Made by a program: the position numbers and the translations under genes. 64,000 nt of DNA from Hesseltinella vesiculosa. Lineage: Eukaryota > Mucoromycota > Mucoromycetes > Mucorales > Cunninghamellaceae. Location of the stretch: positions 1-64,000 of the forward strand of contig MCGT01000059.1 of assembly GCA_002104935.1 (NCBI GenBank), read 5' to 3'. A model generated the notes under the pieces. It saw only the letters and a list, made by a program, of their open reading frames with translations. It was not told the DNA's origin and searched no databases. Of the stretch, positions 4,897 to 20,769 are shown in pieces (position 1 is the stretch's first letter; each line of letters opens with the position of its first letter).

Positions 4897-6653
4897 CTAG
4901 GCGGATTTGGGCATACGTTGGACGGATTTCAAAACAGCATCCAAAGCCTTGAAGTTATTTTTGTCTCGTAAAAATGCTTGATGTTCCTCAGAAGCGTGGT
5001 GCTACGAATAGAGATTAATACCCGCCCTTTTTTTTCGCTTTGGGGTTCTTTTTTTTTTTTTTTTTTTTGGCTTACCACAGCAAAGGAGTCAAAGGCTTTG
5101 TTGCAGTTTTCACAGTATTTGCGGCCTTCGAGTAGTTTGCGTTTGAGCTGGCGGGCCTGGATTTCGGTGCAGAGTTTTTGGGACTGGAGCTGGGAGATGG
5201 AGCGTAGGATGGCTTGTTTGTCCTGGGCGGTAAGCTGCCGGTGGTCGGCATTGGCCAGGCTCGAGGCGATGATTTGGTTGGCTTTGGTGATATTGGAGAT
5301 GGTGCGACGGTCCAGATCGGTTATTTTGTCGACAGGAACGCCGTGACCAGCGGTGGGGGTCGCGTCTGCGGCACGGCTGCCGTTCTGGGCAGGCTGTGGC
5401 GCAGACTTGATCCAAGGCGCGGTGGTGGTGCCTGGCCGGCTGTTGAGTTGGTCAAGGTTGGTGGTATTGTTGGTGGTGATGGTGGTGGCTGGGCCGGTTT
5501 TAGATGAGATGTCGATGGAGGCTGGGGGAAGAGCTTCATTATAGCCAGAGGGCTGGGGTTCGTCCAGATCCATTGGCTGGGGTTGCTGTTGCTGGGTATT
5601 GGCATCGACATTAACTGGCTGATCGTCCTGGCAGGCAGTGACATCGGCGGCCGACTTGCTGCTCTTCTTGAGCAGCTCGGGTGGTGGGACAAAAGGCGAG
5701 CGATCGGATTGCTTCATGTAGATCTTGGGCCACGGATAGACTCGGTCTTGGTCTTTGATTTTTTCGTCAAAGGTGGGAAGCTTGTAATGACGAGCGACAA
5801 TCGGTTTGTGGATCTGGGTGACATCCTCGACCAAGATGTAAGGGCCTTGGAATGGTACAAAGTAGGGGCGCTTGTCGTTGCGGCCCAGCTGGCTGGTGTT
5901 GACCCCGTATTTGTGTTCGTCATTGAGCATCTGTTTCAAGGCTGGGCGAGGTTTTTCGCCTTCCATGAATGACTTCCGGTCATTCTTTCCCAGCAAGGCA
6001 TCCATGACTATTCGCAGTTCTAGTGTCGTCACAAAAGAGATGGATGTTGTATTAGCATCGGTTGGGTTTTATGAGAGGCCACTTACTGCCAAAGCTCCAA
6101 TATTCAACATTGATGCCTTCCCTGGGCTCGAAAAAGCTTTGGTTGGATGGGTCCTTGGCCCTGATGTGCTTCTTGGCAGGGTCAGTACTGGCTCTAGAGA
6201 GTCAAATAAATAAATAAAAAAGGAGTGCACAAAAAAGGGACTTACAGGTCCTGTGGGATGTTTTCTTGATCTTGAGTAGCAGCAAGCATTTCTTTTGTGG
6301 AGGGTATGTCTTCATAGAAGGGTCGATTGGTCACAACATGTGTACATTGGCCAGATAAAAACCTCACAGTGGACTTTGACAACAACAACAACAACAAAAT
6401 AGTTAGGATCCAGAGTGCTATCCACATCTGTTTGTGCACTTACAGCGTTGACCAATTTGATTTTTCTTGTGAAATGCTCAACATAGTCAGTGCTTGGATG
6501 ATCCAAGTACAAAGTAAATGTGGAAAACACCTTGCGATATTTCATATTCCAATAGGCATTGGTGATACGGGACAAGTCATTGTCGATGTCGCCCGTCGTG
6601 TTGGTAGACACTTCAGACAATGGTCGTTTGTTGGTCCGCGGTCGCAAAGCCAT
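4897..6653 (-). CDS. DBF4: Dbf4/Dfp1-like regulatory subunit of Cdc7 kinase
   Basis: Five exons (6653-6444, 6373-6246, 6193-6087, 6019-5076, 5001-4897) give 497 residues. Dbf4 binds and activates Cdc7 kinase, which phosphorylates the MCM helicase to fire replication origins. All three family motifs are visible. The N-terminal BRCT-like motif N includes FLSGQCTHVVTNRP, split by intron 1. The central motif M includes GPYILVEDVTQIHKPIVARH. The C-terminal zinc finger motif C has KYCENCNKAF in exon 4 and HASEEHQAFL in exon 5, giving the CxxC...H-x4-H ligands. Between them is a Gln/Pro/Ser/Thr-rich linker. The ending QRMPKSA is short compared with many homologues. The DNA to the right, to 7412, is shared as a divergent promoter with the Fanzor gene. 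Confidence 0.88.
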
Positions 6654-7303
6654 GATATGCTCATAAAACGTCTGAACAAAGGAGAAAAAAAAAGGGGGGG
6701 ATGCTAGTGGGTATGTGGTGATATGATGGATGAAAGGGAAAAAAAAACGAGTCAGGAAAGAAAAAAAAAAAAAAAAGGCTGGATTTTTGCGCCGACGTGC
6801 CTTCTAGGAACGCATAGTCACGTGTGCGGAAGTCAATGCAAGAAAAAATTTTAGTTTTTCCAGGAAAGGAAGTCGCCCTCTGTGTGAAACACTGTCGCCT
6901 TTTTCAGGAAGGATGCGTCGCATTGTAATGAAATGAATGAGACTTACACATGGCTTCTGCTTTCCAGTATCAACTGAATATGAAGGGCCACAGTATCACT
7001 TTTTCTCTTCGAAAACATGGAGCTCGATAGGATGGATGCCAAGGAAGAAGATGGAAGCCTGAAAAGCCCAGGGTTTTTATTACTTGATTATTTCAGGCTC
7101 GTTTACGCACTCCCTCTTTCTTATTTTTAGTTCTTGCTTTCCTTCAGCCGATCTCTTGTAAAATAAATGTCACAATCACTTTCGTTTATCCATGAGGTTA
7201 AACGAAGAGCCCTAAAAGAGAGAAGATACGTTTTTGAGTGAGCAATCAGAGCTGCAGTCGCGCGTCCCTTTTTCCTCTCCGCCTTATTTTTTTGTTTGCT
7301 TTC

Positions 7304-7347
<44 letters not shown>

Positions 7348-7412
7348 ATTTTTTTTTTCTCCTTCACGCATTTACCTTTCGACTTTGTTCACCTTATTCT
7401 TGTAGTTACGCA
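6654..7412. other. Divergent intergenic region between the DBF4-like and Fanzor 1 genes
   Basis: No gene is seen in these 759 bases. They must hold the 5' regions of both flanking genes. Besides the TC repeat there are several A-runs near 6690-6775. CCCTAAA at about 7212-7218 is a partial reverse match to the TTAGGGTA block at the 3' side of the Fanzor gene, but it is too short to call a terminal repeat. Confidence 0.4.
7311..7345 (+). repeat. (TC)n microsatellite in the Fanzor 1 5' region
   Basis: About 17 uninterrupted TC units lie 67 bases before the Fanzor 1 ATG, followed by a T-run. CT-rich stretches just before the start are common in fungal promoters and 5' UTRs. Confidence 0.85.
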
Positions 7413-10400
7413 ATGTCCCAAACCATTCTACAACAAAGAGCCTATTTGGAGGGTCTAAAACGGCGCAAAATTGAAAGAGAGGAAGAACAAGAGCGACAAG
7501 GTGAGATCTTGCTCCAGAACAAGGACAGCTAACAGAATGCTTTGTTTCAATACATTCAGGCAGAACACCATGTGCCAGATGCGGAAGGACAGATCATGTG
7601 GATGGTCGTTCCCGGCTCTGCCCATTCAACAGTAAGTTGACATGTCAAGCATTGGTCAAACGAAATATCTGACTGGTTTTTTTTTGCTGCTAGGACATTA
7701 TGGGGCACCAACCCAAGCAGTTGTGAGACAGCAGAACAGACAAGGGAGAAGAGCAGGCCAACGGCAATTGGACGCCGCCCGGGCCAATCCCAACGTTCCC
7801 CGATGCTCACACTGCATTCTCCCGGACGGAAGCAATGACGCGTGCGAGCACCACGGAAATGCTGCCAGCCACCTCTGCCACGCCCATAAAACCAATGTGG
7901 ACGATGTTCTGGGCAACATCATTGGTCCAAACCACACCCCTTTTGTCCGTCGCTGTTCTCTGAAGCATGCCCTGCGATGCTATGGCCATTCCAGACGGCA
8001 GCGAATGCGTGCCAAAGCAAATGTGATGCAAGAAGTGAACGTCGTTGTCGACCATGTGCGGGATCTGTCGATCAAAGCCATGCTTTTTACCCAACATCAT
8101 GCTCTGACACTGTTGGAAGGTTCTGAGCCAATCCCTCTCCATTTTGGCTCGCAAGATTACATTTATGGCGTTATGCAGTTGCTGCTTGGTGGTCACATCA
8201 CGAATCAAAATCCGAACCTCCCCCAAGACACAGAATCCATTTTTCACGCATATGTCCAATCATTCGAAACCGCGGATCTCCCAACAGTTCAACCGTTACC
8301 TGGCTATTCCCAAACGTACGCTCATATGGCCAAGACCTTAGCCACAGCGGTCAAGAATGGCCTGGCTGAATCATTTGAACCTCGCTGCCGAACCTTCTTG
8401 GCGTTCAAATTCCGATCTTTGATTCCAGCCAATGTAAGTTGCGAGGGAAAAGAAGACAGGAACTAAACAACTCTCCCTCTTTGCCTCTTAACAGGAAAAG
8501 CCAACTAAAAAATCATTGAAGAAATTGGTGTCATATGCCTACGACACTCTCTGCGGGACTGACAGCGAACCAGCAACTCCTACGTATGCACATGCTTCCT
8601 GGCAAGATGCTGTGGCGTCAGTGATTTCCAATGTGACCCTAGGGCCGACGCCTGTGAATTTGGAAAATCTAACAGCCAAGTTTAACTTATACTTGCCCGT
8701 CGTGTATGGATTCCTTGGTAAGGGCGTAAAAAGAGGCTCAATTGTGTCAAAGGAAAAATGACTCATCTCTTCCTCCTCCAAAAAATAAAAATAGCTGAAA
8801 TGGAAGCCTACAATAATGCAGCCACTGGTGTAGTGAGCGAAGAAACAATCGTCGACTATGCTGACAACAAGAGCTGCTGGGAGCTGCTTACGCGTTTGGA
8901 ACAATTCAATGATCTGGGCCGCCGGCAGCAAAACCGCCTTGTCCGTGCGTTTTTCAAAATGGTCAACCATCCGACGATGCCTGTCAGATTTGGCCCAAAG
9001 CTTGGCGATTATCTTCGCAGTGGAATGACAACATTGGTAACAAGAACCCGTGAACAACTCTCGTTGTCACGCCAATTCCTGAATGGACGGTATATGATCG
9101 ACACGCCAGTATGCTTCAGAACGACAACAGCTTCAACAATGCATGTCACAAAAATGTATACCCTGCTGCCTGCTCTTCGATTCACGCGCAAGTTTGTGAC
9201 TCTGGATGCCCAGTGTCTGGCCCGGATTTTCGATCAAGCAGGTGCACAACCTCGATACGAAGATTATTTGTTCGTCGGCAATCCTGTGGCAATGGACGGC
9301 CCTAACGACGAACCATCCAGACGAGGACGACCCAGACAGCCGGTTCTTTCTGACTATCAAAAGATCAAGAAGAAGTTCCTGGTATTTTGGACTTCGTTGG
9401 ATTTCAAAAAGGTCCGACTGGAGCAGTGGTAAGCTTGGGCAGGTGAATAGAAAAAAAAAAAGCGGGCATCGTGGTAATCTTTTTGTTTCCCTAGCCGAGA
9501 ATCTCTGGGGTCGTATGATGTGGATGTGCCCCCTGAAGGGAACAAAATAGCATTCAGGAACCTTGTACGAACCGATGGCCATACCCTGGAATTCCTGTGC
9601 GAACGGAAAAGCCGAGAACGCCTGCCTGATCTCGTCATGAGTGACTTGGATGACAACGACATGGTGGAATTTTGGTCCTATGGTGTTGACCCAGGGCACA
9701 CAGTGCCCTTCACAGCAGTGGATTCCGAAAAAAATTGCCTTCGATTCACAAACAACGAATTTTACGCCAAATCCGGGTATAAAAAACGTCGATACCACCG
9801 CCAGCTGTCAACCACCGAGTCTGGGATGAACATTGCACTCAACAGCCTGCCAACGAAAAAAACGGTGTCATCGACCAGATGGACATCGTATTGCCAGTCG
9901 CTGTGCGAGACCCTGCCTGTGCTTTACCAATTTTATGGCTCATCCTTTACCAATGCGCGCTTTTTGGCCTATGTCTCTAAGCAAAAAGTCCTGGATGAGA
10001 TGGTGAACATCTTTGCGTTTGGTGGCAAAAAATATAAAGAACATGACGTACTGTAAGTATGAATGGTAAAAAAGAGAGAGAGGGGGGGGGGATAACGGAG
10101 ATTGACGTCAATCTTTATTTTTTTATTCAGTAAAAAAATACCCTTTTCAAGAATACCCCTGGTCATGATGGGCTCTGGTGTGTTCGGCTTCACACTGAAG
10201 GGGAAAAAAACGCGCATGTCAATTATGCCAAAACTCAAGCAAGCCGAGTTGGAAGGACGGCTGCTTGTCTGCGTGGTCAATGAAAGCTTTACAAGTCAAG
10301 TAAGACAGAACTGGGGTGGCGGGAAGAATAGCTGCTCATAACAAGTGTCTTGGTTTTAGGTATGCTGTGCCTGCCACACGCAATCTCTGTCGCTTGCGCG

Positions 10401-10578
10401 AGTTCTTGACCCTTTGACCGATTCCGCGGTTTCCCTCTGGTCTGTAAAGACATGCTACATTTGCCAACGCCATTGGAACCGGGACAAGTCGGCAGCCAAA
10501 AACATTCTGCACCTGGGATATTTGGAACAAGAGAAGCAACCTCGTCCCGAAGTTTTCACCAAGTCAATGAACCATTGA
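7413..10578 (+). CDS. Fanzor 1: TnpB-like RNA-guided nuclease family protein, intact (900 aa)
   Basis: Eight exons (7413-7500, 7560-7631, 7694-8433, 8495-8717, 8795-9428, 9495-10052, 10131-10299, 10360-10578) join with GT-AG sites and no stop, giving 900 residues. The C-terminal third has the Fanzor/TnpB nuclease signature. RuvC-I is WSYGVDPGHT (Asp 651), followed by NNEFYAKSGYKKRR. Next comes GSGVFGFTLKGKK. Then VVNESFTSQVCCACH carries Glu 823 and zinc ligands Cys 830/833, with the second pair at Cys 860/863. RuvC-III is NRDKSAAKNIL (Asp 870). The N-terminus has a basic helix and a zinc-knuckle-like segment (PCARCGRTDH...LCPFN), then a second Cys/His cluster (RCSHC...CEHH...CHAH). Fanzors are known as eukaryotic TnpB relatives, and several have been shown to cut DNA with a guide RNA. 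No transposase gene adjoins it. Confidence 0.85.
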
Positions 10579-10700
10579 TGAAATCCCGAAGATTTCAATT
10601 TTACACCTTTCAAATGTAGACGACAAAGGCGTCTTTGTCTGTCCTTGGTAAGAAAGATGAGAAAAGACAAGGCAGATTCCTTACCTTTTTATTTAGGGTA
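10579..10700 (+). ncRNA. Candidate Fanzor 1 guide-RNA (fRNA/omegaRNA) 3' scaffold
   Basis: Directly after the stop is a 7-bp perfect hairpin (TGAAATC, 5-base loop, GATTTCA; 10579-10597). A second perfect 7-bp hairpin (GACAAAG/CTTTGTC; 10622-10639) overlaps an alternative AGACG/CGTCT stem. GTCTGTCC at 10637-10644 and TTAGGGTA at 10693-10700 follow. GGTAAG (10647-10652 region) can pair with CTTACC (about 10680-10685) between those blocks. The same two blocks occur after the second Fanzor with nearly equal spacing. In TnpB/Fanzor systems the scaffold RNA lies at the 3' side of the gene and the guide follows it, so this is the natural place to look. Transcription is not shown by sequence alone. 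Confidence 0.4.
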
Positions 10701-11050
10701 AATTTTCAAACCATATCGAAGAGTATGAACTAATATATCCTTCCCTTTGTACACGGCTCTGCCTTTCCCTCTTGTATTGTAAGCTTCACTCTCGTGGAAT
10801 AGCCAAGCATCACTTTCGTCACTCACCGTTCGATTTTTATTTATTCTTAGCGGTGTTTCTTTTGGTTGATACTGTATGCTCCCTTTCGCCTTCGTGAGTA
10901 CCACATCCATCTCAAGTATAAGGTTTAGTTGCTTCAGGCTGACACTTATGCCTTAAATATTATAGCTCCACTCTTCGGTTTTTTCTCTCTCCTGGTGCTC
11001 ATCACCACAATTGATGCACGACAATGCGTCTTTTTTATGATTTTGTTATT
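10701..11050. other. Fanzor 1 downstream flank and 3' region of the aminopeptidase gene
   Basis: No gene is seen. If the scaffold ends at the TTAGGGTA block, the first bases here (from 10701) would be the guide. The rest is AT-rich and is the 3' side of the leftward aminopeptidase gene. Confidence 0.35.
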
Positions 11051-13573
11051 TCACGACTTCGTTATTTTGGTATTCCGACATTCATTTTTGGATAAAGTGT
11101 ATTGGAGAGGAATGGTTTCTAATTCTAGCCACTGTAATGCTTGGGGGTCGTTTTTGAGTAAAGGTCCCAAATGGTCACGACACTCTTGATGGTATGCATT
11201 GAGCCATTGAATGTCTTGTCTTGATAACAGAGCAGGCTCGAGCAGTCGCTGGCCAAAAGGCACAAAGGTCAAATGATCGAAACCGAGGTAGGCCGAGTCG
11301 AAGTGGTATGGGGTTGCCACTTTTTTGACACAAAGTACATTTTCAAGACGAATGCCAAACTCGCCATCTTGGTAGTATCCTGGCTCTGTATCAGGAGAAA
11401 GTGCGAGTTAGAAAAGGTGCTCTTTGGAGAGGAGAGGTCGTTGGTTACCATTGGTCACCAGCATGTTTTCTTCCAGAGCGACGGCGTTGTTGGCGATCCG
11501 ACTAGAGATTCCGATAGGGCCTTCGTGGACATTCAAGTAGGCACCGACACCATGACCAGTGCCGTGCCGATAATTCAATCCTTCCTTCCACAATGGGGCT
11601 CGTGCCAAGGTGTCTAGTTGGTAGCCTGGCAATAAAATCAAATTTATAAGAAGTATTAACGGCAGCCATTCTGCTTGTATTTTTTTTCCAGAGCGAGATT
11701 ACCTGTAGTATTTTCAGGAAAGACAGCTTGGTCTAGGGCAATGTGGCATTGAAGGACACGAGTAAAGGCTAGTTTTTGAAAGCCAGAGGGGTTGCCAGCG
11801 AACAAATAGGTGCGCGTGACGTCCGTGGTGCCATCCAGGTACTGGGCGCCCGAGTCGCATAGATAGACTTGGGCAGGATCGATGACAGGCGAGTTCTTGG
11901 TGGGTGGCTGATAGTGAATGATGGCACCATTGGCGCCCGTGGCGGCAATGGTGTCAAAGGACAAGCCCACATAGGCGGGGTCTTGCTGACGGATGGAAGC
12001 CAGGTGCGTGGCTGCGTCGTGTTCGGTGACTTTGTCGTGTTTCAGTGAATGGGCCAGCCAAGCAAAATGACGCGTCACAGCCGCACCGTCTCGGACATGA
12101 CATGCCTTTGTACTGGCCACTTCCTGCGCATTCTTGATGGCTTTGGCCCGAGGGATCATGGTCGCACCAAATCGAACGTTTGACTATTCCACCCAACAGT
12201 AAAGCAGTATGTGAGTGTGTGTCAGGCCACCCTTCCAAAAAAAAAATACATACTCCCAGGGCATCGGCAATGGAGACGTTGGCAGTGTGAGGGTCGAGGA
12301 GCCAGGCCTGAGAGGGTTGATCGTTGGCCAGCTGGGCAAGATCGGTCAGGAAAGCATCATACGGTTTGATTTGGACAGCGGCTTCCTGCAGGTGGGTCAT
12401 CAGGGGCTGCCACCGCGACTGGTTAGCATTTTCTTGTGCGTAGAGAAGCACCTGGTCCTGGGTGACAACACAATAGGAAAAAAAGACCGGACAGCAATGG
12501 ATGTCCGAGCCACGCAGGTTCAGCAGCCAGGCAATCTCGTCCAGGCTGGTTACAATCGTCGCGTCCATGCCATGCGCCTTGATATCCTGCCGTAACTCGT
12601 CAATCTTCATCCGATGGCTTTTCCCAGCATACTTGAGAGGATGTACATGCACAGGCTCGCTTGGTCGAGGTGGTCGCTTGGTCCCACGGATCTGGAATGT
12701 GCCAAGAAAAAGGAAAATGCGTTGGATGGTTTATTTTTTTCTGCTGGGTCGTTACCTTGTCCACCAAGTTTTCATTCATGGGAATCAGCGTCGAGCCTTG
12801 GTTTTGAAGTTCACGCTGCAGTTGTGCTGCCTGATCTACGCAATTAAAAAAAACGAAATAAAAAGCCGCCCGAGTGTTAGGTCAGTGGCTTCCTTTCTAT
12901 TCATCCTGGGCTACGAACCTGCTGTGATCACAGAGGCGTCAATTCCTATCCTCTTGTTCTTGAATAGCTGCCATCGATACAATTATAAAACGAAAAAAAA
13001 CTTTAATGGAGCACGTGATTTGTCTTGTGGTGCTTACCTTGCAATAATCTTGCCAGTTTGGCACGCCAGGCAAGCCTTGCTTCATGAGCTGCCATTGCTG
13101 CGCGTCAAGCTCTTGCTCAGCCTGCAGAAAATATCGGCCGTCGGTAAACAAGGAAGCCTGATCGGCCGACACTACAGCACACCCTGCACTGCCTGTGAAT
13201 CCAGATAGCCATGCTCGCCGATTATCACATTCAGCAGTGTATTCACTCTATGAGAAAAGAAAGGAGAGTTTAGGAACACGCCATTCGTTTTTTTTTTTTT
13301 TTGTCTCGTGCCTGATGAGCATCTTCAGTTGGGACAATTCTAAAAGAAGCACCCATTGAGACAAGAGGCATGTGAGTAGCTGTTTGGAGAGAGAGGTTTA
13401 GGAAATGGGACTTGAGGGTTTGTTACTTACAAAACATCGATAGGTTCAGTTGCAGTGGCCATGGCCTTGCGTAGTAAAGGCAGTCGCTCGTGCTGTGACA
13501 AATATCGGATGCTACCAATGAGCCGCGCTATTCCATGGCGTCGGGATACAGCTCGATGTGGGTGCAGTAACAT
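11051..13573 (-). CDS. Xaa-Pro aminopeptidase (aminopeptidase P, M24B family)
   Basis: Nine exons (13573-13431, 13339-13312, 13247-13038, 12967-12919, 12835-12756, 12691-12254, 12183-11703, 11625-11449, 11385-11051) give 646 residues. The enzyme removes an N-terminal residue preceding proline and uses two metal ions. The first creatinase-like domain contains [17 protein letters not shown] and the typical SGFTGSAG. The pita-bread catalytic domain shows the metal ligands: two Asp in [17 protein letters not shown], His in HGTGHGVG, Glu in the ENMLVTNEPGYY segment and Glu in FGIRLEN. The N-terminus is basic and Arg/Ser/His-rich ([20 protein letters not shown]), which may be a mitochondrial presequence. 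Intron 2 starts with GC rather than GT, and both flanking exons fit the conserved protein exactly. Confidence 0.93.
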
Positions 13574-15249: not shown

Positions 15250-15455
15250 TGTGCTGAATATGAGTCAGTGGGAATTACAGAAAGAAAATAAAATAAAAAA
15301 AAAGGAGGGCTCAGCAACGCTGCTTAAAAAAGTTGGCGGAAAGGTTGTCCACACAGGAATCGCGGAGACTGAATTCTGGCTAGTGTATATGCCTTCGCTT
15401 GCTGCACTAGGGGAAAAAAGAAAAATCAGCATCCAATCAAATTTCCCCTTCCCCG

Positions 15456-15568
15456 TACCCTAACCAAACAATTTTTTTACCTGCAAAAGCATTAAACCGT
15501 TCTTGTCAAGGGACAGACGATAACCTTTTCTAAAAGGTTGCTCTATCTAAAAAAAAAATAAAACATGC
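15456..15568 (-). ncRNA. Candidate Fanzor 2 guide-RNA 3' scaffold
   Basis: Read on the minus strand after the Fanzor 2 stop: a T-run, then a perfect 8-bp hairpin (AACCTTTT, 2-base loop, AAAAGGTT; about 15540-15522), then GTCTGTCC (15518-15511) followed by CTTGACAAGAA, and finally TTAGGGTA (15463-15456). The order and spacing match the region after Fanzor 1. The sequences diverge beyond TTAGGGTA. The inference is the same as for Fanzor 1: a possible scaffold RNA with the guide starting at 15455. It lies between the Fanzor 2 stop and the CK2 alpha start, so it could also be part of the CK2 alpha promoter. Confidence 0.35.
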
Positions 15569-18500
15569 CTAAAACTCGGGGGATGGAGGGCGAGGGAGGG
15601 GACAAAAGGCAAGGAGCCGATGGCGATGATCAAAGTAGTGACGAGCAATGGCAAACATGTTGGACGCAGCGGAAGTGTCACGATCCAGCACCACTCGGCA
15701 CAAATCGCAGCGCAAGAGGCCGTATATTTTGCTGCCATCAATGTAAAAAGGCTTGAGCTTGTCATGGCAAATGCAGCAACGCTGTATGGATCGATAAAAA
15801 AAATTGAGTCAGTGACCAAGTCTTCACTTCTCTCCACTGCACTTGTTCAGCACCTTGCTGGTGTTGAATTCCCATATGGATACCACCAACAAGCGTCCTT
15901 GGCTTTGCCGTTCCTCGAGATTTTTGAAGACCAAATTGGATGGCCCAGGTAACTGCTTCTTCAAGGGGGTTGCCACTTTCTTGCCTTTAAGGCCGTCGCC
16001 AAACACAATCATCGGCACACGGTCGGGGGAGGCTACGTGTTTGGTGACTCCGTGGCTCAGTCGCGTAGTTGCCTTCATTGCTGGAGCAGATCTATAAAAA
16101 ATAAGGCATTCAGAGGTCTGTTGCCGGTCTGAAAGTTGATTCGTTTTTTTTTTTTTTTTTTTACCGTCGTTCCGTCATTTCAAGGTGAATGCTGTTGAGC
16201 TGACCTTGGACAAACATGCGTTCTTCATTAAGGTCATTCAAGGATGCTTCAAGACGAGCAAGTTTTTGATCGAGCTGGTACACAGTGGTAGGTAATGCTG
16301 GTCCAGATGCCGACTTCATGGCCTTTTTATAGGACATGATTCGCATATTCGTGTCTTGTATGGTGCGTTCCAAGATCGTAAGATTCTGGCGTAAGGCGTG
16401 CGTCGTTTCGTGAAGCTTGAGGGCACGCTTGTGTCTGGCACGCTTGCGTCGTTTTCTCCGATTGCGCTTCGTTTTGGTACGCTTTTCTTTCACATACTTG
16501 CGCGAGATGCCAGCAAGGACATTTGACACATAGGCTACACCGCGCTGCCTGCCACGATACGCGTTAAACTTGGCGACCGAGTGTTGGTGCCCATAAAAGG
16601 TGAAGAAAATACCAAGGCGGTCCAGAATGTAGCGACAGCGCTTTTCGTATTCGTGGGGAGATGGATGACGAAGTGGGATGGCGGATTCAATTTGCTGGTA
16701 GCTGAGGGAACGGCCATTGTGTGGGTCCAAAAACATTGTTGTCTTCTTTCGTTGTTCCAACTCTTGCATTCGTTTCTGCGTTCCACATTGTGCGCGATAC
16801 TCCCGAGCAGAGACCTTGTAAACAGGAAATGGTTCCCGAGGGGAGGCTTCTGGGAGTGGGTCATTGCTAGCGGTTGAGACGAGAGACACAGTGGCTGGGA
16901 CATCCAGTGACATGAGGCTGGCTTCGTCATCATCATCATTATAGAACAAATTGTCTTTTTCCACAAACATAGCACTGTCCACGTCAGGAGTACCAGATGC
17001 ACCTGTTTCCAGTGTTAATGCACCAGTGTCACGCGTAAGTTCTTGCAGCATGCTAAGTGGCTGTCCAGCAGCACCATCACCGTCGTCGTCGCTTTCATAG
17101 GCGCCTTCATCATAACTGTTGCTGCCATCACCAGCACCATCCTCAGCCTGGATTTGACGGGGGAATGGAGTTCCACAAGCCGCTGTGATAATGGCCCGTC
17201 GGCCTGGGTCCACGGCTGTCAATCGGAAGTGGTCCATGAAGTCGGGTGGCACGTCGTCCATGTGGGGTAACTTGATGGTTGGCCGATTGATCCGGGGACG
17301 GCGGTGGAAATGGAACGAACATGACACGCCGTCCGACCAAACGAATGCACCAAAAAAGTGCGGGTTGAGCATGATCGACTCCAACATTTCATCTGAGCTA
17401 ATTAGAAAAAAAAAAGAGTAGGGAAAATAGATGAGATTCGACTACACCTTGCCACCCCACTTCTGCCTTTTACCTTGAAAATCCAAACATGTCCATTTTA
17501 AACACCTCGAAAAAAATGGGGAGCGATCCCAAGAAGCTAGCCTGATTGTTGTCAGAGGTAGCAGTCGTAGGGGTGGTGGCTGGCCGGGTGCGGGGCGTAG
17601 GACGGGAAGGGCCAGTGACTTGTCGGTCGGCTGCGAACTCTTGACTGGTGTGCGTGTACGACGTGTATTCCGTCAGGCGAGTGATCGTCTTCGCAGTGAT
17701 TGGGATTGCTCGGCGATCCAGACCTGGCTCTGGGAGGATGGTGAAGTGAGGTACCTTGACAGGGTTTTCATTTTCTTGGTCCTTGTAATCTTGATAAGCA
17801 GACGCAATTTGAATCAAGATTTTCAGAGTCATGGTTGGATCTTCTTGCAGCTTTCCTTCGTCAATCAAGCCCATGCCAGGCGGCTTCATAGCCAGGACTT
17901 GTTGTGTGATTATGGCAATGGCTTCATCGGCAGGCGTGTTCGTGCTTTGCGATTCACCCGTAGAGATGTCATGTGGATGGCTCGGCGAGGGATGGGTGAG
18001 GGATGGTGATGGTGGATGTGGGACATCCAGCGAGGGTGAGTTGTTTTCAGCGGTGGTGGTGGTATGTTCAGCAAAGAGCTGGTAAAGATCGTCAACGACA
18101 TTGTTCAACCGTGGCACCTGTTTTAAATGCGAAAAAAAAAAGTGAGTTTCCCCCCCTTTCCGTTTTACGCTCAGTTCCCAGCTTACCTCTTGTCCTTGGA
18201 CAGCAAAGAGGAATTTGATGTACCGCTTCACCTTGCCATCAAACTTTTCGGCCAAGCAATTGGTGTAGGCCGTTTCCAATGCATCAAGACAAGGAGTCAA
18301 GGTATCGGCGATAAATTTGTGCCCATGGAAGTGGGCTGGGTCATAGCGGATGCTAGGGTGGTCGCGAGCAAAGGCCATCCAATGGGAAAGAAGGGAAGGG
18401 GGCAGGCGTGCGCGGGTATTTTCACTGGTAATGGGGTTGGCAGGATCATCTCGTGAGGCTGGGCTGCGAGGGTACACCAGCTGGGTAAGAGAATAAAGGC

Positions 18501-19148
18501 CATTGGCGCAGATGAGGTAATTGTTGAATTCATCAGGGAATGACAGAGCAAAATGATTCAAGAAGATCTGCACACGCACCTAAATATTCTTCACGCACTT
18601 GCTGGTGGCTTCAATATTTCTTTTAAGAGGCAAAGCATACGGCAAGTTGACAACCGCGTCGAAGCCAACCTTTCGAGCAAAGGTGACATGGCCTGGCATC
18701 CATTCCCGAAGAAAGTCGGCCTTGTTGACTTTGTGCATGGGACAAGCGTGGCTGGCAGCAGTCATGTGACCCATGTTGCCACAGGCCTTGCATGGCCCAA
18801 TGGCATTGGGGTTGCGCTGGTCTTGTTTCTTTTTGCGGCGACCAGCCTGGCGCGCCTCTTGGCGACGGCGTTCTGCTTGGGCACGAGGATCAGCAGACCC
18901 AGTGCCTGAAGCATAAAGTGGTGAGGACAACAATCACTGGTTTCAACGTGTGACTTACGTTCACGGTATATTTTGGCTTGTGTCCAAATAGCAAGGACTT
19001 GCTCTTCGGTAAGTTCCCACTCACCACGTCCGTGCTGAAGAGGGGTCAGATGAAGCCATTCCTCTCGTGCACGCGTGAACGATGTGTCGTTCATAAAGCA
19101 TAAAGCCTCGTAAAAAGCTTGAAGGTGATCTTTGGGAAAATATTGCAT
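15569..19148 (-). CDS. Fanzor 2: second TnpB-like nuclease gene, with one in-frame TAG (possible pseudogene)
   Basis: Six exons (19148-18959, 18905-18187, 18117-17474, 17397-16165, 16091-15854, 15781-15569) stay in one frame for 1,077 codons before the stop, except for a TAG at 18582-18580 (codon 172). The nuclease signature is complete. RuvC-I is FRLTAVDPGRRAIITAA (Asp about 581). SAREYRAQCG follows. A long acidic insert and a very basic helix (RNRRKRRKRARHKRALKL) separate it from GDGLKGKK. SIWEFNTSK (Glu about 1003) precedes the zinc finger CCIC...CDLC, and LDRDTSAASNM (Asp about 1043) ends the domain. A zinc knuckle (CKACGNMGHM) lies near the N-terminus. The C-terminal core matches Fanzor 1 motif by motif. 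The last intron has a weak donor (GTGCTG). No intron that would remove the TAG was found. Confidence 0.75.
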
Positions 19149-19631
19149 TTTGCTGAACAAGAAAAAAAAAATACAGAAAAGAGAAGGAAAAAAAAAAGAG
19201 CAAGACGAGAAAATGAGCTTCTCCGCTGCTCACGCTCACACACGCCCTGCTCATTCCTATTATATTCACGCTAATATATTTTTTTAAAAAATGTGTGAAC
19301 AGATCAACTTCTTGTCCAGCTGATGACCAAGCTTACGAATATCATGCCATCATTCAATCTGTGGGTCAAGGCACTCGTAAACATGAAAGCAAACTTCGCT
19401 TCAAACTTCTCAAATTGGCGTTGTCCTTATTTAAGAAAGCCTTGCTCCTGATTTTGTGGATTACTCAGTGAATTGAGCGATGGTAGTGGGTTTAGTGACA
19501 AATTCACGTTCTTCTTTCTGACTGGCTGCGCTATTTTTTTTCGCAACATTTTTCCCGTAGTGCTGGCAGCTGTCATGTTTTCGAAATCAAAGAATTAGCA
19601 CATGTTTTTCATTCTTTCTGTCTGAGAGAGC
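19149..19631. other. Fanzor 2 upstream region
   Basis: No gene is seen. It must contain the Fanzor 2 promoter. It ends at the left end of the inverted-repeat element. Confidence 0.4.
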
Positions 19632-20011
19632 TGTCATTATAATCCTATTCATTTCTCATCATTTTGTGCGCGTATGCAATTTTATTGGGGGAATGGACTC
19701 TGAGCAATGTACCACTGTGGTTATGGATCAGATCGCCTGGGGGGTTCCCTGGGGAAAATGGCCGATTTTTTCATCTTTTTAGCTGGAGAAACGGAAGTGC
19801 CAAAACGAAACTGGTCAAGAGTTGGCTGGGCGACCTTGACCAATCGACGTGATTTTTCAGCACAGCCATCATTCATGCTTTTTGCGCACCCATGCAAAAA
19901 CCCACATCGATCCAACCATCCAAAAGTTCTTGGATCGTTTCCTTTTTTTTTTTTTCAAAATGAAAAGGAAATTAGAGTGTCATATTCAGTCTCCGCCCAG
20001 CACCTTCCCTT
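19632..20011 (+). repeat. Left terminal inverted repeat
   Basis: Starts TGTCATTATAATCCTATTC. It matches the reverse complement of the right arm through the CAGCACC block at about 19998-20004, then diverges. Confidence 0.85.
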
Positions 20012-20318: not shown

Positions 20319-20705
20319 AAAGGGATGGTGCTGGGCGGAGACTGAATATGACTCCAATTTCCTTTTCATTTTGAAAAAAAAAAAAAGGAAACGATCCAAG
20401 CACTTTTGGATGGTTGGGTCGATGTGGGTTTTTGCATGGGTGCGCAAAAAGCATGAATGATGGCTGTGCTGAAAAATCACGTCGATTGGTCAAGGTCGCC
20501 CAGCCAACTCTTGACCAGTTTCGTTTTGGCACTTCCGTTTCTCCAGCTAAAAAGATGAAAAAAAATCGGCCATTTTCCCCAGGGAACCCCCCCCCCCCAG
20601 GCGATCTGATCCATAACCACAGTGGTACATTGCTCAGAGTCCATTCCCCCAATAAAATTGCATACGCGCACAAAATGATGAGAAATGAATAGGATAATAC
20701 TGACA
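20319..20705 (-). repeat. Right terminal inverted repeat
   Basis: On the minus strand this starts TGTCAGTATTATCCTATTC at 20705 and mirrors the left arm. A run of C (about 20588-20599) has expanded relative to the G-run in the left arm. Confidence 0.85.
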
Positions 20706-20769
20706 ACCCTTTCAAACATCAGAGAGAAGAGCTAGAAGGCTAACGAACATTTGATAGAAATGATTTTGC

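Follow-up and report, generated by a model that had tools for sequence, protein, structure and literature searches.

A predicted Fanzor gene within a repeated, TA-flanked element with Tc1/mariner-type ends in Hesseltinella vesiculosa

Described Fanzor-only elements and the protein encoded at this locus

Bao and Jurka described elements that encode Fanzor alone and carry repeats of the mariner type together with TA duplications; the Fanzor1 families that they report include ones in Mucor, Rhizopus and Phycomyces (PMC3627910). Among these elements, SPu-1 of Spizellomyces punctatus has 17 full-length copies, nine of them with intact frames; it is about 2.1 kb long and combines 33-bp inverted repeats and putative TA duplications with a single open reading frame for a 633-aa Fanzor protein (PMC3627910). 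PUl-4 is likewise Fanzor-only, with TA duplications and mariner-type repeats that are identical to those of confirmed mariners (PMC3627910). At the protein level, SpuFz1 is an active nuclease: the sequence that flanks its guide RNA on the 3' side serves as the guide, and CATA is its target-adjacent motif (PMC10432273); one sentence in PMC11423790 gives the motifs of SpuFz1 and GtFz1 in swapped order.

In this study, we analyzed a window comprising positions 1 to 64,000 of contig MCGT01000059.1 (forward strand) in the Hesseltinella vesiculosa assembly GCA_002104935.1. The element found here resembles SPu-1, which we take to encode SpuFz1, in its encoded protein, TA duplications and inverted repeats, but it differs in length (4.25 kb), in protein size (900 aa), in having seven introns and imperfect repeats of only about 10 bp, and in belonging to another host lineage. 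It shares with PUl-4 the Fanzor-only content, mariner-type repeats and TA duplications, whereas its match to a resident mariner is confined to the outermost 10 bases or so. It is a new member of the Fanzor-only, TA-flanked kind described by Bao and Jurka. A literature search found no work naming both Fanzor and Mucoromycota, and one work naming Fanzor with Mucorales; work naming Fanzor with mariner was headed by that of Bao and Jurka, and the literature on Hesseltinella vesiculosa and transposons concerned, by title, DNA methylation.

An earlier, sequence-only reading had proposed that eight exons close in one frame and that all catalytic and zinc residues are kept, and both points were borne out. 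Splicing of the exons in silico (7413-7500, 7560-7631, 7694-8433, 8495-8717, 8795-9428, 9495-10052, 10131-10299 and 10360-10578) gave a single 900-aa frame with TGA at its end, and the seven introns, 59-78 nt long, all had GT..AG borders; with an uninterrupted frame and every splice site present, the gene is indeed intact. In the spliced protein, GVDPG from residue 649 contained the RuvC-I catalytic Asp (D651), ESFTSQ from residue 823 began with the catalytic Glu (E823), the CxxC pairs of the zinc site were C830/C833 and C860/C863, and the RD at residues 869-870, within RDKSAAKNIL, supplied the last catalytic Asp (D870).

The profile search that the sequence-only reading had called for agreed with its choice of family. 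Pfam PF07282 (Cas12f1-like TNB) scored 29.4 bits over residues 809-877, above its cut-off of 26.3, by which measure the Fanzor signature is far beyond chance. The protein is very divergent from structurally solved Fanzor1 proteins, as a single-sequence phmmer search against solved structures reached SpuFz1 at an E value of 0.77 only. In comparison, a profile of 11 relatives, the window sequence excluded, reached both SpuFz1 (8gkh, E 1e-7) and GtFz1 (9cer, E 6.8e-4), and no Parasitella Fanzor chain appeared by name among the profile matches listed at E up to 1. The profile alignment to SpuFz1 placed the catalytic D, E and RD aspartate in register, with the E823 region opposite the E-Y-K-T-S motif; the RuvC D-E-D positions and the zinc site are common to the window protein and to SpuFz1, GtFz1 and PpFz1, the Fanzor1 proteins with structures (PMC10432273, PMC11423790). 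A DPG motif plus an alternative catalytic Glu six residues ahead of the zinc finger has been described as the Fanzor fingerprint (PMC10711439). We found DPG at D651-P652-G653, invariant across a 6-sequence alignment, and E823 separated by six residues from C830, with Glu in all five covering sequences of the same alignment. The older motif of Bao and Jurka, D-X(125-275)-[TS][TS]-X-X-C4 zinc finger-X(5-50)-RD (PMC3627910), was also found in the stretch from residue 641, with TSQVCCAC at 826. Therefore, judged by the PF07282 match, the profile match to SpuFz1 and GtFz1, the published fingerprint and the older motif, the protein is a Fanzor, and it is most likely a Fanzor1 rather than a Fanzor2. 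Fanzor1 genes are set apart by closer sequence and by lying outside IS607-type elements; the element here is TA-flanked, and no serine recombinase came to notice in it.

A protein search with the window Fanzor gave five relatives at 91 to 24% identity. The best of them (P0001, six members) was a hypothetical protein of Hesseltinella vesiculosa, 91% identical, whose RuvC part is spliced differently; the others came from Hesseltinella (54%), Apophysomyces and Mucor flavus. Two further searches, in which solely the candidates sharing most words were scored, yielded at least nine proteins, query counted, when seeded with the Mucor protein (Mucor flavus and Helicostylum included), and at least two with the 6-sequence alignment. 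The relatives of the window Fanzor are Cas12f1-like TNB proteins from Hesseltinella, Mucor flavus, Helicostylum and Apophysomyces, which public records name just as hypothetical, uncharacterised or TNB-domain proteins.

Copies, ends and target-site junctions of the element

The positions of all features are collected in Table 1. The sharp-ended repeat of about 4.25 kb around the Fanzor gene was beyond the view of the sequence-only reading. First, BLASTN revealed 16 other genomic places, whole or cut by contig ends, that were 96.3-99.0% identical to the window element; 17 places were fetched, the seventeenth (L055) being an older partial copy at 80-83%. Homology to the window began at 6848-6854 and ended at 11101-11105, save where a contig ended earlier. 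With the window copy included, 6 of the 17 near-identical copies had both ends, 5 the left end only and 6 the right end only, 11 copies being cut by contig ends. Because L045 and L046 have a common right flank, the number of distinct recent copies is about 11 to 17. Second, searches with the ends, window included, gave 16 left-end and 18 right-end matches, among them remnants at 70-85% identity. One old derivative (L058; about 580 bp, 79-85% identity) is internally deleted and has both ends without the gene. In addition, a second subfamily, with about 60% protein identity, terminates in a similar way, with AAAGTGTA or AAAGTTTA; close to these sequences, the two copies of it that were fetched diverge. 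Third, the host genome contained at least 141 exon-level matches to the Fanzor protein (51 of 340 candidates scored) and at least 46 matches to PF07282, none of those listed being on the window's contig; the latter count is not full, since both Fanzor genes of the window were missed by that search. Such a combination of old remnants, sister subfamilies and a recent burst is the trace of a transposon and not that of a domesticated gene.

Table 1. Features of the window and what each was based on (positions counted from the first nucleotide of the window)
Feature	Positions	Strand	Basis or remark
Left TA target-site duplication	6852..6853	.	Junction comparison
Left terminal inverted repeat	6854..6863	+	Other copies have (TA)CAGTTTTTCC or close variants
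Whole mobile element, about 4.25 kb	6854..11099	+	BLASTN shared ends and end searches; Fanzor is the sole gene recognised
Fanzor gene	7413..10578	+	8 exons, 900 aa; in silico splicing, PF07282, profile match to SpuFz1/GtFz1
Last Fanzor exon, with zinc site and RuvC-III RD	10360..10578	+	
3' non-coding right end, expected place of a guide-RNA scaffold	10579..11099	+	Inferred
16 codons and TGA from the transposon end, new aminopeptidase C-terminus	11051..11101	-	ORF 11051-11407
Right terminal inverted repeat GGATAAAGTG	11090..11099	+	Reverse complement CACTTTATCC; related subfamily ends similarly
Right TA target-site duplication	11100..11101	.	Junction comparison
Predicted natural guide/target of the window copy	11102..11121	+	First 20 nt or so beyond the right end, antisense to aminopeptidase C-terminal codons; inferred from the SpuFz1 arrangement and the junction
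Xaa-Pro aminopeptidase (M24) gene, extended by the insertion	11102..13247 (upper limit approximate)	-	PF00557, 3ctz, ORFs
Second Fanzor element, CACTA-type ends, CTG duplication, separate from the first	15405..19562	-	

Junction comparison showed that the element reads TA-CAGTTTTTCC...GGATAAAGTG-TA, with its two ends forming imperfect inverted repeats of about 10 bases. At the left end of the window copy two terminal bases are gone, namely the CA (or a variant) that other copies have after TA. TA, as in Tc1/mariner elements, stood at 11 of the 12 recent left junctions (the exception having AA) and at all 12 recent right junctions, 11 of whose 12 flanks were distinct. L043 is without the left TA, and L058 has TA on the right and TT on the left. 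The TA duplications and short inverted repeats point to a Tc1/mariner-type transposase that would act in trans. With the old copies L055 and L058-L061 excluded, the tetramers at the 12 recent left junctions were TTTA (6), TGTA (4), AGTA (1) and AAAA (1). TTTA makes up 10.5% of the TA sites of the window, and its excess at the junctions had a binomial p of 7e-4 if the junctions are taken as independent; the four TGTA junctions are not, because all four adjoin the same kind of mariner element. TTTA as a target-adjacent motif is thus suggestive, the cases being few and partly dependent.

The earlier statement that no transposase lies beside the gene went uncontradicted: no DDE_3 domain was present on the window's contig among the matches listed from the genome profile search. 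Inside 6854-11099, no gene besides Fanzor was recognised in the list of open reading frames. Accordingly, the element is at most a non-autonomous member of Tc1/mariner. The genome as a whole had at least 164 DDE_3 matches (150 of 202 candidates scored). Mariners adjoin four other copies of the element, in each case with the outer end of a resident Tc1/mariner-like family directly at the left junction; as such neighbours were seen at 4 of 12 left and 0 of 11 distinct right junctions (p 0.09, Fisher test), a bias to the left side is not claimed. The mariner beside L050, 1.74 kb long with 119-bp inverted repeats and ends TACACTCTTTCC, has a 439-codon open frame; translation from its first Met gives 434 residues, which match DDE_3 at E 9e-27. 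When the ends of the Fanzor element (CAGTTTTTCC/CACTTTATCC) were compared with those of this one resident 1.74-kb DDE_3 element (CACTCTTTCC), they were alike over about the 10 outermost bases and then showed no similarity. Since the likeness is confined to these bases, the mariner beside L050 is a candidate helper and no more. The terminal pattern TACASTYTTTCC occurred 90 times, compared with 45 times for its reversed control.

A second Fanzor element with another type of ends starts at 15405, 4.3 kb from the first one. Its Fanzor gene shows VDPGRR, EFNTSK-RCCIC across an intron, CDLC and LDRD, and a spliced piece of 125 aa scored above the PF07282 cut-off. Five other copies were found at 94-98% identity. 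The element ends in CACTAGGGGAAAAA and CACTACGGGAAAAA, with a CTG duplication; among its six copies, four have perfect duplications of 3 bp, either CTG or TTG (in one of these four, the right repeat has two changes), one differs and one is without the right end. The CACTA/EnSpm superfamily is marked by CACTA termini in combination with 3-bp duplications. This superfamily is absent from those listed in the abstract of Bao and Jurka (PMC3627910), and our search found no literature naming both Fanzor and CACTA. A search for Fanzor with EnSpm returned an alga preprint that mentions the two separately.

Insertion in an aminopeptidase gene and constraint on the Fanzor frame

The neighbouring genes were recognised as previously proposed, that is, as DBF4-like (PF08630, E 1.1e-14; if the first Met is at 6653, this gene starts about 200 bases past the left end of the element) and as an aminopeptidase (PF00557; human XPNPEP1 3ctz, E 3.2e-19, aligned to four residues short of the chain end). 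The view that the Fanzor gene lies between them was right as to the flanks, but the element does not merely lie between genes, for its right end is within the aminopeptidase stop codon. When the element and one TA were removed in silico, the minus-strand frame ended ...LETIPLQ and then TAA; with the element present, the frame runs on for 16 residues to a stop at 11051-11053, inside the transposon. Together, the reading of the empty site and the XPNPEP1 alignment indicate that the TA at which the window copy inserted belonged to the stop codon (TAA) of an aminopeptidase P gene, to whose frame these 16 residues were added.

Intactness was not confined to the window copy. An uninterrupted frame and all splice sites were also found in L039, L045 and L048, whereas L043 had one splice acceptor changed; L044 and L053 were uninterrupted over the part that they cover. 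Indels were present in 10 of the 17 aligned copies, many near contig ends, and in two of these copies (L040 and L042) codon 76 was a premature stop. The seven catalytic and zinc codons were unchanged in all 13 copies that fully cover them, out of the 17 aligned. In the 17 sequences, we counted 43 distinct nonsynonymous variants over 2072 sites and 36 synonymous ones over 628 sites, stops left out, which gave a pN/pS of about 0.36 (binomial p 1.3e-5). Comparison of the window copy with each of the five other complete copies revealed 0.6-0.7% divergence in coding and 1.5-1.9% in non-coding sequence. By these measures, the Fanzor coding sequence is under purifying selection across copies. That the protein was apparently kept by selection during the expansion favors a role in the element's own spread, and, with the catalytic residues kept as well, nuclease function is plausible.

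Proposed mechanism and competing explanations

We consider with high confidence that the locus is a recently mobile Fanzor element with Tc1/mariner-type ends and not a host-adopted gene. In the mechanism that we propose, a Tc1/mariner transposase encoded elsewhere would excise the element and paste it at a TA. Transcription through the right end would then produce a guide RNA, with the last few hundred bases as scaffold and about 20 nt just outside the right end as guide (here, the last codons of the aminopeptidase). Guided by this RNA, Fanzor would cut the uninserted or freshly vacated site by a target-adjacent motif with TA as its last two bases (TTTA at this locus), and repair from the copy that holds the element would restore or spread it. 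By analogy with SpuFz1, the guide of the window copy should begin at 11102, adjoining the TTTA of the empty site. The steps after transposition (guide RNA, cutting and repair-driven spread) appear, taken together, reasonably probable. It is a more tentative suggestion that the window copy itself is an active, self-protecting selfish element, in which the insertion site has written the guide RNA (the last codons of aminopeptidase P, 11102 onward), alleles with the normal stop are cut next to TTTA, and repair copies the element in.

A competing explanation shares the mobile-element part of this reading and denies the steps after transposition: a mariner-type element would carry an intact but irrelevant Fanzor and be spread by the transposase only. 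Several results for the right end agree with it, as no guide-RNA signal was detected by folding or in Rfam. The 11 other recent right ends match 10750-11104 at 97-99% identity; 10860-11101 gave no fold signal (z-score -0.65; 51 of 200 shuffles were as good), the right end had no Rfam match, and comparison with old decayed copies revealed no covariation convincing by eye, although dead copies need not keep a fold. The gene-less derivative L058, which exists apart from the full copies, fits this explanation too. However, a frame constrained during the expansion is unexpected of a mere passenger, and we regard this explanation as rather unlikely.

Far less credible is domestication, i.e., that the host retained the window copy, fixed at this locus, to perform a cellular function, which the sequence-only reading had raised with a "perhaps". 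The intact frame, the housekeeping flanks and the purifying selection on the frame might be taken to favor it. However, the low pN/pS is common to the whole copy set and is not special to the window copy. A domesticated gene would be a single copy with its transposon ends lost; here, 16 other places have 96-99% identity, the ends and TA duplications are kept, and the window copy extends the frame of its neighbour. We thus rejected domestication because of the number of copies, the ends that they retain and how recently they diverged, and no host gain from the element is evident. Among the titles listed in a literature search with Fanzor and "domesticated", none concerned a domesticated Fanzor. 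Finally, segmental or subtelomeric duplication instead of transposition, to which the many copies at contig ends (11 of 17 cut) might hint, is very unlikely, since homology stops at TA on both sides, only one pair among the 12 right flanks is related, six copies have both ends inside a contig, and assembly breaks are expected at repeats.

In the reading that we prefer, that of a recently mobile element, a "maybe domesticated" Fanzor becomes a bounded, recently active transposon with both junctions, intact copies and measurable selection. Its insertion in a stop codon is a concrete change of a host gene, with 16 added residues. From the distinct insertion junctions, natural guides and the target-adjacent motif can be predicted directly; if the selfish-element reading is true, the genome would hold no fewer than 11 natural guides that differ from one another, each set by its own right junction. 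Therefore, this one small fungal genome could serve to test what role Fanzors have for the transposons that carry them.

Partial copies and mariner-like neighbours of the first Fanzor element

Two places elsewhere in the host genome carry incomplete forms of the first Fanzor element (see table). The left-end fragment at L062 breaks off abruptly, without the remainder of the element. The derivative at L058 has lost its interior and has no Fanzor gene; from the element's right end it still carries 335 bases, and from the left end ~90. At 4 of the 12 recent left ends a mariner-like element directly adjoins the Fanzor element; such elements at L042, L046, L050 and L053 measured about 780 bp and 1.74 kb, and those at L046 lie end to end in alternating orientation, with TA in common.

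Coordinates of the features described
Feature	Location	Strand	Details
Left-end fragment, first Fanzor element	L062 188-396		209 bases; 98% identity
Deletion derivative, first Fanzor element	L058 347-924		~580 bp
Mariner-like elements	L046 1158-2705; L050 1023-2759; flanks in L042 and L053		
Second Fanzor element	window 15405-19562	minus	CACTA-type inverted repeats; 3-bp CTG duplication
Inverted pair	window 19619-20011 and 20320-20718		~400 bp; 95% identity

The second Fanzor element and Fanzor diversity in the genome

Five further copies of the second Fanzor element were found in the host genome (94-98% identity), and no report of a Fanzor inside a CACTA-like element was found in the literature searched. 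The inverted pair beside it, with relatives at tens of other genome places (mostly 73-81%), is probably a fold-back element. Profile searches of the 27-Mb genome revealed at least 164 matches to the transposase domain DDE_3 and at least 46 to the TNB domain (PF07282). The genome of H. vesiculosa harbours several Fanzor families side by side.
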